From Acidobacteriota bacterium (GTDB lineage: Bacteria; Acidobacteriota; JAAYUB01): 64,000 bases of DNA. Under the pieces are notes generated by a model. That model was not told where the DNA came from. It worked only from the letters and a program-made list of their open reading frames with translations, and did not search any database. Both the position numbers and the translations under genes were made by a program. Positions within the stretch are counted from its first letter, which is position 1. Each line of letters begins with the position of its first letter. Positions 5,607-9,897 of this stretch are shown here, piece after piece. The stretch is taken from positions 1-64,000 of the forward strand of contig JAAYUB010000085.1 in NCBI GenBank assembly GCA_012517875.1, in the 5' to 3' direction.

Positions 5607-6596
5607 TCAATACGTGGTGCTATGCGAGGTGTCTTCGTCGAGTCCGCCGGGTGTGACCAGGACGAAGGGATCAGCGGCGCCTTCCTTGTACAGCACGGTG
5701 CGATTGCGGCCGAGTTCCTTGGCCCGGTACATGCATTCGTCGCTCCGAGCGATCAGCTGCTCAGGTGTGGTCATGGTGGCGGACTTCTCGGCGATGCCGA
5801 TGCTCACCGTGATGCGGATTTCGTGACCGTCCTTGCTGGTAAAGGTGTGCGCTTCGATGAGTTTGCGCAGCTTCTCCGCCACGTAGATCGCCTGCATGCC
5901 GGAAGTCTCCGCCAGGATGATGATAAACTCCTCGCCGCCGTACCGGCAGGCGATGTCGGTGGCCCGCAGGTTGGACAGGAGCAGCCGGCCCAGTTCCGAC
6001 AGCACCTCGCTGCCGGTCAGGTGGTCGTACGTGTCGTTGACCAGTTTGAAGTGATCCAGGTCCAGGAAGAGCAGGGTCACCGGTTGCGACGGCTGCCGGC
6101 CCCGGAACAGGAACTCCAGGTGGTTCATCAGATACTTTCGATTATAGAGGCTGGTCAGGTCGTCGAACGTGATGAGGTGGTAGAGCTTCTCGTGGAACTC
6201 ACTCTCGTCGGCGTCGGCAAGCTCGAATTTCAGCACCGTGCTGCCCACCCGGATCTTGTCGCCGTTCACCAGCCGCCGCTTCTGGATCCGGTCGCCGTTG
6301 ACCGACGTGCCGTTGGCGCTCTGCAGGTCGATCACCGTGACGTAGGCCGGGGTGGTCTCCAGCAGGCAGTGCTTCCGGCTGACCGTCTTGTCGTTGACGC
6401 GGATGCTGGCGGTGGAGCCGCGGCCCAGTGACATGGCCGCGGCGGTCAATTTGAAAATCTGGCCGGTATCGTTGCCGTCGATCACGATCAGGGCGGGAAT
6501 CTTCTGACCCGCACGGAGTTTGGCCTCCAGCTCCTCGGTCCGGAGGATCTGGGTGGTCTCATCCAACGGTCCTGTGGCTTCCTTGCCCTTGTTCAT
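5607..6596 (-). CDS. FHA-GGDEF diguanylate cyclase
   Basis: The protein has 329 residues from ATG 6596, chosen for its CTGAGGG ribosome site. The N-terminal FHA domain (about 36-125) shows SLGRG, SRKH and ANGTSVNG, the phosphothreonine-binding signature. The GGDEF domain (about 140-310) has an active-site GGEEF at 220-224. An intact inhibitory I-site RxxD (R211-D214) lies exactly five residues upstream. It should therefore make cyclic di-GMP with product inhibition, under control of a phospho-Thr partner recognised by the FHA domain. No membrane segment is seen, so it is cytosolic. A Ser/Thr kinase gene at 29.3 kb is one conceivable partner (inference). It is transcribed divergently from the Tes-like radical SAM gene and shares a 207-bp control region with it. 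Confidence 0.9.
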   Translation of the reverse strand: MNKGKEATGPLDETTQILRTEELEAKLRAGQKIPALIVIDGNDTGQIFKLTAAAMSLGRGSTASIRVNDKTVSRKHCLLETTPAYVTVIDLQSANGTSVNGDRIQKRRLVNGDKIRVGSTVLKFELADADESEFHEKLYHLITFDDLTSLYNRKYLMNHLEFLFRGRQPSQPVTLLFLDLDHFKLVNDTYDHLTGSEVLSELGRLLLSNLRATDIACRYGGEEFIIILAETSGMQAIYVAEKLRKLIEAHTFTSKDGHEIRITVSIGIAEKSATMTTPEQLIARSDECMYRAKELGRNRTVLYKEGAADPFVLVTPGGLDEDTSHSTTY

Positions 6597-6621
6597 AACC
6601 CTCAGGTGAAAAAACAGCCAT

Positions 6622-6650
6622 ATTATAGTGAATCCGGCGGACCGGCACAA
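6622..6650 (-). promoter_or_regulatory. Promoter of the FHA-GGDEF gene
   Basis: On the minus strand, TTGTGC (6645-6650), a 17-bp spacer and a perfect TATAAT (6622-6627) precede the ATG at 6596. Confidence 0.6.
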
Positions 6651-6663
6651 GCTCCAAACCGAT

Positions 6664-6710
6664 GGAACAGTTTCAGAAAAAAATAGCTACTGTTCCGCCG
6701 TGAGGAACAG
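6664..6710. promoter_or_regulatory. Three GGAACAG half-sites, candidate operator
   Basis: GGAACAG occurs at 6664-6670 and 6704-6710, and its inverse CTGTTCC at 6690-6696. The second and third form an inverted repeat with a 7-bp spacer ending 7 bp before the -35 of the radical SAM promoter. The array sits between two divergent promoters. This looks like a dimeric-regulator site plus an extra half-site; the regulator is unknown. Confidence 0.5.
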
Positions 6711-6717
6711 TTTGGTT

Positions 6718-6746
6718 TTGACTGGGTGGAGCGTGGGACCTATAAT
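6718..6746 (+). promoter_or_regulatory. Promoter of the Tes-like radical SAM gene
   Basis: TTGACT (6718-6723), a 17-bp spacer and a perfect TATAAT (6741-6746) precede the ATG at 6804. This is one of the best sigma-70 matches in the window. Confidence 0.8.
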
Positions 6747-6803: not shown

Positions 6804-8426
6804 ATGAAAACCAAGACCGCCAAAGAAAAGGCCTCTGCCGCCCGCCAGACCCTGTGCGGCGCTGATATCACACCTCTGCCCCGGGACCTGCCGTACGCGA
6901 CCGTTTCGTTGTGCCCGGAGTGCAGCCGCAAGATCGACGCCCGGCTGTTCGAGGAGAACGGCAAGGTGTACATGGAAAAAACGTGTCCCGACCACGGCTA
7001 CTGCCGCGACCTGATCTTCTCCGACGTGGATATCTACCGGCAGGCCTTGTCGTGGCACTACGACATCGGTGAGGGCGTCTCCAATCCGGCGGTGGCCAAA
7101 GCCGCCTCCTGTCCCGACGATTGCGGCATGTGCGACCTTCATGTCAGCCACACCGTGCTGGCCAATGTGGACCTGACCAACCGCTGCAATCTCACCTGTC
7201 CCATCTGCTTCGCCAACGCCAATGTGCAGGACTACATTTACGAGCCCTCGTTCGAAGAGGTCAAGGGCATGTTGCAGACGCTCCGCGATGAACGGCCGGT
7301 GCACGGCCGGGTGGTCCAGTTCGCCGGCGGCGAACCGACCCTGCACCCCGATTGGTTCCGGATCCTGACGCTGGCCAACGAGATGGATTTCGCCCACGTC
7401 CAATGCGCCACCAACGGCATCAAATTCGCCGACCTGGACTTCGCCATGAAGTCGAAGGAAGCCGGCCTGCACACTCTCTATCTGCAATTCGACGGCCTCG
7501 ATCCGAAGCTCTACAAGGAGATCCGCGGCTCGGAAAAACTGCTGGACATCAAGTTCAAGGCCATTGAGAACGTCCGCAAAGCCGGGATGAAGATCGTGTA
7601 CGTGCCCACCATCGTGGGCGGCGTCAATGACGACCAGGTGGTCCCCATCCTCCAGTTCGCCCTCGACAACATCGACGTCAGCTCGGGCATCAGCTTCCAG
7701 CCCGTGGCCCTGACCGGCCGCATCGATGACAAGGAGCGGGAGAAGCTGCGCTTCACCCTGTCCGACCTGGCGCTGCGCATCAATGAGACCGGTTACACCA
7801 CCAAGGCGGACTGGTTCCCGCTGTCGTGCACATCGCCCATCTCGCAGCTCATCTCCGCCATGCGCGGCAATCCCACCTGCCACATCACCTGTCACCCCAC
7901 CTGCGGCATCGGCACTTACTTCTTCGTGGACCAGAACAAGAAGCCCACGCCCATCACCCGCTTCGTCAACGTCAAGGCGCTGCTGGACGACATGCAGAAG
8001 CAGGCCCAGGGCCTCGAGGCCTCCAAGTGGCTCCGCGGCGCCTATAAGTTCTTCACCGGCGCCGGCGCCCTGGTCAACATGAAAAAACACTTCATCGCCG
8101 ATCAGGCGCCCGAGGGGCTGTCCTTCACCCGCTTCCTGCAGACCCTCGAGGGGATGCTGGACAAGAAGGCCGGCCGCGGCGAGCTGGACGGCACCTACAC
8201 CTACAAGACGCTGCTCGTGGCCGGGATGCACTTCATGGACAGCTACAATTATGACATCGACCGCGTCAAGCGGTGCGTCATCCACTACGCCACCCCCGAC
8301 GGCCGGCTTTACCCGTTCTGCACGTACAACTCCGGCCTGGTATTCCGCGACAAGATCGAGAAGCAGTTCTCCGTGCCGAAGAGTGAATATCGGAAGAAGC
8401 ACGGCGCCAGCGCCGACTGCTGCTGA
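6804..8426 (+). CDS. Radical SAM protein of the Tes/MJ0619 type
   Basis: The protein has 540 residues from ATG 6804, which lies after the promoter at 6718-6746. The radical SAM cluster motif CNLTCPIC is at C128, C132 and C135. An N-terminal Cys set (C37, C40, C61, C67) resembles a rubredoxin-type iron site. A second set (C103, C107, C110) and later Cys pairs (CHITCHPTC and FCTYNS) could hold auxiliary iron-sulfur clusters. This layout matches the archaeal tetraether lipid synthase family (M. jannaschii MJ0619). That family couples lipid tail ends to make membrane-spanning lipids, and bacterial homologues are proposed to do similar chemistry. The reaction here is inferred, not shown. The GGEPT SAM-binding element is present. 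It is monocistronic with its own promoter and terminator. Confidence 0.8.
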   Translation: MKTKTAKEKASAARQTLCGADITPLPRDLPYATVSLCPECSRKIDARLFEENGKVYMEKTCPDHGYCRDLIFSDVDIYRQALSWHYDIGEGVSNPAVAKAASCPDDCGMCDLHVSHTVLANVDLTNRCNLTCPICFANANVQDYIYEPSFEEVKGMLQTLRDERPVHGRVVQFAGGEPTLHPDWFRILTLANEMDFAHVQCATNGIKFADLDFAMKSKEAGLHTLYLQFDGLDPKLYKEIRGSEKLLDIKFKAIENVRKAGMKIVYVPTIVGGVNDDQVVPILQFALDNIDVSSGISFQPVALTGRIDDKEREKLRFTLSDLALRINETGYTTKADWFPLSCTSPISQLISAMRGNPTCHITCHPTCGIGTYFFVDQNKKPTPITRFVNVKALLDDMQKQAQGLEASKWLRGAYKFFTGAGALVNMKKHFIADQAPEGLSFTRFLQTLEGMLDKKAGRGELDGTYTYKTLLVAGMHFMDSYNYDIDRVKRCVIHYATPDGRLYPFCTYNSGLVFRDKIEKQFSVPKSEYRKKHGASADCC

Positions 8427-8644: not shown

Positions 8645-9088
8645 ATGAACATCGGCCTGCCGGAACTGGCCATCATTTTCCTCTTGGCGCTGCTGCTGTT
8701 CGGGCCGCGCAAGCTGCCAGAGATCGGCCGGACCGTGGGCAAGTTCATGCACGAATTCCGCCGGGCCAGCGACGAACTGAAGACCACCATCGAGCGCGAG
8801 GTCAACCTGGAGGCAGGCGACCTGCGACCGGATTTAATCAAGTTCAAGCAACAGATCGCCGAAGCGCGCAACGAACTGTCCGACATCCGCAGCGCGGTGG
8901 ATCCATACACACCCCTGGCGTCCTCCGGCAGCGCCACCACTCCGTCCGATTCCGCCGGGCCCGCGGCCATCGAGCCTGCGGCCGCCGAATCCCCCAACGC
9001 CCATGACCGCCTGCTGGAAGAAGCCGTCGCGGAGCGCGCCGCCGTCGAAATCCCGCCGCCCGGACCGGGCGACGATCTGAAGGGCTGA
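8645..9088 (+). CDS. tatA: Twin-arginine translocase subunit TatA/TatB
   Basis: This 147-residue protein has the TatA/B fold. A short N-terminal membrane helix (about 6-20) is followed by the FGPRKLPEIGR hinge and a charged amphipathic helix (about 22-65). A long Pro/Ala/Glu-rich tail completes it. It forms the pore or receptor component that works with TatC in exporting folded proteins. The tail makes it longer than a minimal TatA, so a TatB-like or bifunctional role is possible. tatC starts 2 bp downstream, so the pair is an operon. Two proteins in this window carry N-termini compatible with Tat export: the peptide-binding protein (33447-35033) and the M1 peptidase (43403-45868). Confidence 0.9.
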   Translation: MNIGLPELAIIFLLALLLFGPRKLPEIGRTVGKFMHEFRRASDELKTTIEREVNLEAGDLRPDLIKFKQQIAEARNELSDIRSAVDPYTPLASSGSATTPSDSAGPAAIEPAAAESPNAHDRLLEEAVAERAAVEIPPPGPGDDLKG

Positions 9089-9090
9089 CC

Positions 9091-9897
9091 ATGCGTGAAT
9101 CACCGCCCGCAGAAGGCGCCGCCCGCGGCCCGGCAACCGGCGAATCCCTGAAACCCATGACCCTGTTGGAACACCTCGACGAACTCCGGCGCCGCCTGAT
9201 GCGCTGCCTGATGGCGGTCGCCGTCGGCTTTGCGGTGTCCTACGCCTACCACGAGGAGATTTTTCAGTGGCTGGCCCTGCCACTGACCCGATACCTGCCC
9301 GAGGGCGGGCGCCTGGTCTACCTGAAGCTCCAGGAACCGTTCATGCTGTTCCTCAAGGTGGCGCTGTTTGCGGGCATCTTCCTCGCCGCGCCTTTCCTCC
9401 TGTGGCAGCTCTGGCTGTTCATCTCGCCGGGCCTTTACCGACATGAAAAACGCTACGCCCTGCCGTTCATCGTGTTCGCATCGGCCCTCTTCCTCGCCGG
9501 CTGCGGTTTCGCCTACTTCATCGCCCTGCCGTCGGCCTTCCAGTTCTTCATCGTCATGGGCAAGGGCTACACGCCGAACATCGACATCGACTTCTTCTTC
9601 GACCTGGTATTGTTCATCATCCTGGGGATGGGCGCGGTCTTCCAGCTCCCCGTCGTGATCGCTTTCCTGGCCATGATGGGCATGGTCACGCCACGGTTTC
9701 TCATCCAGAAATTCCGCCACGCGGTGGTGATCATCTTCATCGTGGCGGCGGTCATTTCGCCCACCACCGACGCCCTCAACCTGGTGATCTTTGCCGGACC
9801 GATGCTGGTGCTCTACGTCCTGAGCATCGGCGTGAGCTGGATCTTCATGCGCCGCCGCGCCAAGACCGGCGCCGTCGACGGCGCGCCCGCGGCATGA
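9091..9897 (+). CDS. tatC: Sec-independent protein translocase TatC
   Basis: The 268-residue protein has six predicted membrane helices. It has the TatC N-terminal signature (MTLLEHLDELRRRL, about residues 23-36), the conserved first-loop region with QEPF, and the periplasmic FxFISPGLYxxE segment (LFISPGLYRHEKR). TatC is the receptor for twin-arginine signal peptides in the inner membrane. It begins 2 bp after tatA and overlaps the next gene by 4 bp (ATGA), so it sits inside a tight three-gene operon. Length and motifs are normal for the family. Confidence 0.97.
   Translation: MRESPPAEGAARGPATGESLKPMTLLEHLDELRRRLMRCLMAVAVGFAVSYAYHEEIFQWLALPLTRYLPEGGRLVYLKLQEPFMLFLKVALFAGIFLAAPFLLWQLWLFISPGLYRHEKRYALPFIVFASALFLAGCGFAYFIALPSAFQFFIVMGKGYTPNIDIDFFFDLVLFIILGMGAVFQLPVVIAFLAMMGMVTPRFLIQKFRHAVVIIFIVAAVISPTTDALNLVIFAGPMLVLYVLSIGVSWIFMRRRAKTGAVDGAPAA

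Follow-up and report, generated by a model that had tools for sequence, protein, structure and literature searches.

The window, by which we mean the whole 64,000-nucleotide stretch of DNA that was analysed, carries a radical SAM gene, tes, preceded by a promoter and an operator-like element in an intergenic region that it shares with a divergent gene:

5607..6650, minus strand: FHA-GGDEF (diguanylate cyclase) gene, assigned by Pfam, divergent from tes
6664..6711, no strand assigned: operator-like element, with a half-site GGAACAGT at 6664-6671 and a palindrome ACTGTTCC-N7-GGAACAGT at 6689-6711
6718..6746, plus strand: sigma-70-type promoter TTGACT-17-TATAAT, matching the consensus at 11 of 12 positions
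6804..8426, plus strand: tes, radical SAM protein of the tetraether-lipid-synthase family (540 amino acids), assigned from NF045702, 7tol and an AF2 (AlphaFold) model

The tes open reading frame (ORF) starts with an ATG at 6804 and its stop codon ends at 8426. A GTG at 6726 would open a longer ORF, but this start is unlikely and the ATG is preferred, in view of the promoter at 6718-6746 and of a GGAG ribosome-binding site just in front of the ATG. The promoter is conserved in the locus of a sister Acidobacteriota genome (L011) and similar in three further loci (L013-L015). The operator-like element has the layout GGAACAGT-N17-ACTGTTCC-N7-GGAACAGT and lies between the FHA-GGDEF gene and tes, stopping a few bases short of the -35 box. 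This arrangement is kept in L011 and L013, and L014 and L015 have an extended variant. An exact copy of the palindrome is found nowhere else in the window genome. A wider regulon was considered and rejected, as sites with two mismatches (55, versus 38 in the control) are barely above background; the three sites with one mismatch lie inside ORFs or extend across them, in no clear promoter setting.

The FHA-GGDEF gene is also the divergent neighbor of tes in L011, L013, L014 and L015. More broadly, a GGDEF-domain gene lies beside tes in three acidobacterial families, as a divergent FHA-GGDEF gene in two and a convergent GGDEF gene in the third (the window, L011, L013, L014 and L015; L020, L067 and L109-L113), hinting at a link between c-di-GMP and membrane-spanning lipids. 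On the other side, tatA and tatC follow tes (8645-9897); a functional linkage was rejected, since approximately 2.7 kb intervenes in the sister genomes (L011, L012).

The window contig is acidobacterial: the neighboring genes tested share synteny and 70-98% identity with L011, which comes from an Acidobacteriota MAG. The genome measures 4.02 Mb and is 96% complete; in it, the window protein is the single match to the Tes model above its cut-off, the other radical SAM proteins scoring at most 70 bits. LptD was found in this genome, so the host cell is probably diderm, as the original prediction had supposed.

Family, fold and metal ligands

The original prediction had read the cysteine layout of this protein (a rubredoxin-like set, a radical SAM CxxxCxxC motif and several auxiliary groups) as that of the Tes/MJ0619 family. 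The assignment holds. The protein scores 569.7 bits over residues 33-525 against the NCBIfam model NF045702, “tetraether lipid synthase Tes” (cut-off 450), and PDB entry 7tol (MJ0619/GDGT-MAS of Methanocaldococcus jannaschii) matches it with an E-value of 3.5e-132. The cysteine layout agrees with that reading and goes far beyond what chance would give; in the alignment every metal ligand of MJ0619, including those of the auxiliary clusters, maps one to one onto the window protein:

6912..6995, plus strand: rubredoxin-type Fe site C37-X2-C40-X20-C61-X2-H64, with the residues and spacing of MJ0619 C9-C12-C33-H36 and a match to Pfam Zn_ribbon_HMPTM
7110..7142, plus strand: N-terminal auxiliary [4Fe-4S] ligands C103, C107, C110 and H113 (MJ0619 C73, C77, C80 and H83)
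7185..7208, plus strand: radical SAM cluster C128-X3-C132-X2-C135 (PF04055), invariant
7902..7904, plus strand: C-cluster ligand C367, aligned with MJ0619 C338
8226..8228, plus strand: labile C-cluster ligand Met475, aligned with MJ0619 Met439
8274..8321, plus strand: C-cluster ligands C491 and C506 with Tyr495 between them, aligned with MJ0619 C455, C470 and Tyr459

In their description of the metal sites of MJ0619, Lloyd et al. (PMC9433317) name C73, C77, C80, “a conserved histidine” and Met439. In our reading, taken from invariance in the alignment, H83 would be the N-cluster histidine, and C338, C455 and C470 the C-cluster cysteines. The N-cluster ligands are invariant in all Tes aligned. 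The check for a loss of auxiliary-cluster ligands, which would have counted against the original prediction, found all of them in place. The SAM-pocket residues F106, G145, Y195, D199, R210, V236, T238, Q268, T273 and R275 are kept. The position of S271, which bonds in the pocket via its backbone, is Ala in the window protein, in most bacterial Tes and in all eight Tes of the Thermoplasmata group that were compared. Two extra cysteines lie near C367, namely C342 (7827-7829) and C363 (7890-7892). Among 29 bacterial Tes, Cys342 is found in 19 and Cys363 in 24, and the archaeal sequences compared mostly have other residues there.

The AF2 model of the window protein (mean pLDDT 88.9, pTM 0.90) bears out the predicted family at the level of fold. 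It superposes on 7tom with a TM score of 0.92 by target length and a whole-chain rmsd of 2.7 Å at 41% identity; the next structure, MoaA, reaches a TM score of 0.54 over 236 columns. The archaeal Tes/GDGT-MAS proteins (MJ0619, 7TOL/7TOM; MA_1486) are like the window protein in domain order, in the four metal sites, in fold and in SAM-pocket residues. The window protein differs from them in sequence, in belonging to a separate bacterial clade and in its extra Cys342 and Cys363, and no isoprenoid-lipid pathway was found in its host. We conclude that the window gene is a real, intact bacterial tes, of a family that is already known.

Relatives and a second acidobacterial class

In a scan of named genomes, relatives of the window protein were found at 93% identity in one Acidobacteriota MAG, 66-77% in further Acidobacteriota, approximately 54-60% in Bryobacterales/Solibacter and other Terriglobia MAGs (about 56-58% for the Tes of Solibacter-group MAGs) and 53% in one Gemmatimonadales MAG. 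Archaeal identities are approximately 50% for Thermoplasmata and 40% for other archaea. In the tree, the window protein lies inside an acidobacterial clade (support 100/100), that is, within Tes but on a bacterial branch separate from the archaeal clade; this placement, proposed as a check on the original prediction, agrees with it. All archaeal Tes fall into one clade (100/99), which takes in the acidobacterial sequences G263 and G295 and leaves out the window protein. These two (loci L090 and L091) are nested near Bathyarchaeota, their genomes carry no PF09989 protein (see below), and they look like transfer or bin contamination. After the addition of 29 Thermoproteota sequences, bacterial Tes (29 rows, SH-aLRT 83) were sister to archaeal Tes (99), and two divergent sequences from Acidobacteriota branched below the two groups. 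This order of deep branches shifts with sampling and hangs on a distant outgroup; no claim is based on this backbone. Given its place in the tree and a neighborhood syntenic with that of the sister genome, tes was not acquired recently from archaea.

In many genomes of the Terriglobia type there is a longer Tes-like paralog that scores approximately 320-350 bits, below the Tes cut-off. These second-class proteins (ORFs of about 620-860 amino acids, 32-36% identical to the window protein) are split from Tes with support of 100/100. They resemble the window protein in keeping the rubredoxin, SAM-cluster and C-cluster ligands and the positions of Met439 and Tyr459. In contrast, all four N-cluster ligands are gone in each of the 15 members sampled; the position of C363 is Cys in the same 15. 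The Edaphobacter aggregans “Tes homologue” reported at 32% identity by Zeng et al. (PMC8941075) probably belongs to this class, judging from the identity range. Tes and a second-class gene are side by side in G264, G073, G120 and L029, and in several genomes of Terriglobia (L125, L126, L127, L029) no more than approximately 8 kb separates the two. A search of the window genome with the Tes model found no second-class paralog. The Tes of Koribacter and Solibacter usitatus (Zeng 2022; Halamka 2022) share family, phylum and a proposed role as partner of PlsAR with the window protein, which differs in lineage, gene neighborhood, its lineage-specific operator and the lack of a second-class paralog.

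Linkage with an ester-to-ether reductase homolog

The window genome encodes a single PF09989 protein, on contig C56; tes is on contig C85. We use gerA-gerB as shorthand for a two-gene pair of the Ger/PlsA type, assigned by domain homology only. At the reductase locus (L122) the features are:

L122 2310-4658, minus strand: sigma-54-type regulator (GAF/Fis-type), divergent, upstream of gerA
L122 4603-7707: gerA (1034 amino acids, two BcrAD_BadFG domains and DUF2229), by domain homology
L122 7620-8975: gerB partner (451 amino acids), after gerA

The 451 amino acid gerB product has no Pfam match. Two BcrAD_BadFG (activation) domains have been tied to the alkyl-ether-forming Ger and not to plasmalogen synthase, although PlsA and Ger cannot be separated by sequence alone (PMC13274423). 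We regard the pair as a homolog, a putative ester-to-ether reductase of the Ger/PlsA type. Both ORFs are present in all 18 loci examined, and the pair also occurs in named Solibacter, Bryobacterales and Terriglobia MAGs. A GAF/sigma-54 activator/Fis-type regulator is divergent from gerA-gerB in seven loci (L122, L142-L147). The operator-like element of tes is absent upstream of the reductase genes.

Do the two systems occur together? Tes above the cut-off is present in 38 of 396 Acidobacteriota genomes. Some PF09989 protein is encoded in 28 of these 38, versus 61 of the 358 genomes without Tes; the ten Tes carriers with none imply that this reductase is no strict requirement or that there is another route. 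The gerA type, counted in Acidobacteriota at an identity of at least 52%, is carried by 21 of the 396 genomes, 16 of them with Tes (Fisher p-value 2.7e-14 over genomes and 4e-6 over families, both inflated by relatedness). Among the five gerA carriers without Tes, three (G005, G256, G241) have a hit in the second-class range; the hit of G244 is weaker, and that of G035 is weaker again and resembles a fragment. Among 150 Gemmatimonadota, gerA (55-59% identity) is found in all six genomes with Tes versus one of the 144 without (at least 50% identity); the p-value of 5e-10 overstates independence owing to genome kinship.

The genes are also physically linked. In two Acidobacteriota (G329 and G202), tes-gerA-gerB are contiguous on one strand, with gaps of 75 and approximately 250 bp. 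Four complete Gemmatimonadota loci (L050, L228, L229, L230) have the order tes-DHH-gerA-gerB; in a fifth (L231) the contig ends inside gerA, and in the sixth genome the cluster is split between two contigs. The gene after tes in every Gemmatimonadota tes locus seen (L050, L228-L232) is DHH/DHHA1 phosphoesterase-like (approximately 344 amino acids). No report of tes-gerA-gerB linkage was found in the open-licence literature searched. What is new here is this clustering in two phyla, the loss of N-cluster ligands that sets the second acidobacterial class apart from Tes, and a more precise prediction of the product as ether tetraethers and not iso-diabolic esters. Also new are the conserved promoter and operator-like element of tes and the gene content of the window genome, in which the reductase pair is present and a second-class paralog, GGGPS and MCH were not found.

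Proposed reaction and product

Family membership, ligands, fold, phylogenetic class, the presence of the reductase homolog and its cross-phylum linkage were computed; we infer the chemistry (transferred from MJ0619), the reductase activity, the substrate chain type and the product. MJ0619 couples two saturated tails through two hydrogen abstractions, its C-terminal cluster holding the first radical (PMC9433317). In the window protein, a 5'-deoxyadenosyl radical from the CX3CX2C cluster would abstract a hydrogen from the terminal methyl group of a saturated tail of a lipid, and the carbon radical would be held on the C-terminal [4Fe-4S] cluster. The radical of a second tail would couple with the parked one, forming a C-C bond that joins two lipids into a membrane-spanning molecule. 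Likely substrates are iso-branched glycerolipids whose esters would have become ethers through the action of the Ger/PlsA-type reductase pair of contig C56, and the expected product would be a branched glycerol trialkyl or dialkyl glycerol tetraether (brGTGT/brGDGT). We consider it likely that the protein is a bacterial tetraether synthase acting in this way, by tail-to-tail coupling of ether lipids.

Bacterial Tes homologs, including those of Acidobacteria, have already been proposed to have a likely role in brGDGT synthesis (Zeng 2022, PMC8941075; Halamka 2022, PMC10087280), and bacterial Tes activity is unconfirmed (PMC11868695). In S. usitatus, tetraethers (brGDGTs and brGTGTs) make up an estimated 10-47% of the membrane, iso-C15 mono- and diethers are present and iso-diabolic acid is not detectable; PlsAR followed by Tes has been proposed for this organism (Halamka et al., PMC10087280). 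Because the window genome has Tes and the reductase pair and lacks the second class, a diether route as in S. usitatus is the best prediction. The organism is known only from an assembled draft genome, from whose genes this prediction is drawn.

The original prediction had suggested membrane-spanning lipids such as those of the iso-diabolic-acid type. Its enzyme family stands, while its product type is weakened by the reductase homolog and by Solibacter, which has this gene pair and makes brGDGTs but no detectable iso-diabolic acid; ether-linked branched tetraethers are the better guess. Could ester-bound iso-fatty acids nevertheless be joined first, giving iso-diabolic-acid tetraesters in which ether bonds form later or never? 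MJ0619 was crystallized with phosphatidic acid (PMC9433317), coupling is thought to be indifferent to ester or ether (PMC9433317, PMC13274423), and iso-diabolic acid is found in most studied Acidobacteria (PMC10087280). However, the reductase homolog clusters with tes in two phyla, and the lineages said to be rich in iso-diabolic acid, as far as lineages can be matched by inference, mostly have the second class, which the window genome lacks. We regard the tetraester order as unlikely.

Less probable still is another radical SAM reaction on a lipid or hydrophobic substrate, for example macrocyclization within one lipid or a TrsS-like reaction. MJ0619 also makes macrocyclic archaeol (PMC9433317), and the window protein scores 321.7 bits with the TrsS model NF045646; this falls short of the cut-off of 490, the fit to the Tes model is far better, none of the Tes-specific ligands is missing, and the partner genes are by homology lipid-ether genes. 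Archaeal-type synthesis of isoprenoid GDGTs after gene transfer, which the approximately 50% identity to Thermoplasmata Tes might suggest, is very improbable: GGGPS (PF01884) has no match in the window genome, with archaeal controls positive, the protein falls outside the well-supported archaeal clade, and the enclosing genes are syntenic in the sister acidobacterium. Equally hard to credit is a role as a methanopterin (pterin) methylase, which is how MJ0619 was first annotated and where the Pfam domain matched here (Zn_ribbon_HMPTM) got its name. That annotation could not be confirmed and was dismissed for structural reasons (PMC9433317), and a search of the window genome for MCH (PF02289, a tetrahydromethanopterin enzyme) found no match, with methanogen controls positive, hence no sign of that pathway.

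Returning to the tetraether synthase, it is tempting to speculate that tes-(DHH)-gerA-gerB forms an operon for tetraether lipids in bacteria, common to Gemmatimonadota and Acidobacteriota, that alone turns ordinary iso-fatty-acid phospholipids into branched tetraethers. The archaeal enzyme might even descend from the bacterial one, because bacterial Tes are highly diverse and, with the outgroup used, two acidobacterial branches lie below both clades. We hold this broader proposal to be doubtful.

A comparable bacterial enzyme is Mss, the membrane-spanning lipid synthase of Thermoanaerobacter (Bacillota) reportedly described by Sahonero-Canavesi in 2022. It is likewise said to be a radical SAM enzyme that couples lipids tail to tail and to have been proposed together with Ger. 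The brGDGTs are widely used as molecular thermometers of past climate. The clustering of tes with the reductase genes in two phyla, and the presence of these genes in an uncultured acidobacterium, name a small set of candidate genes for their synthesis. These genes may serve as markers to predict brGDGT producers: lineages with Tes and a gerA-type reductase would be expected to make ether tetraethers, and those with the second class alone iso-diabolic-acid esters.
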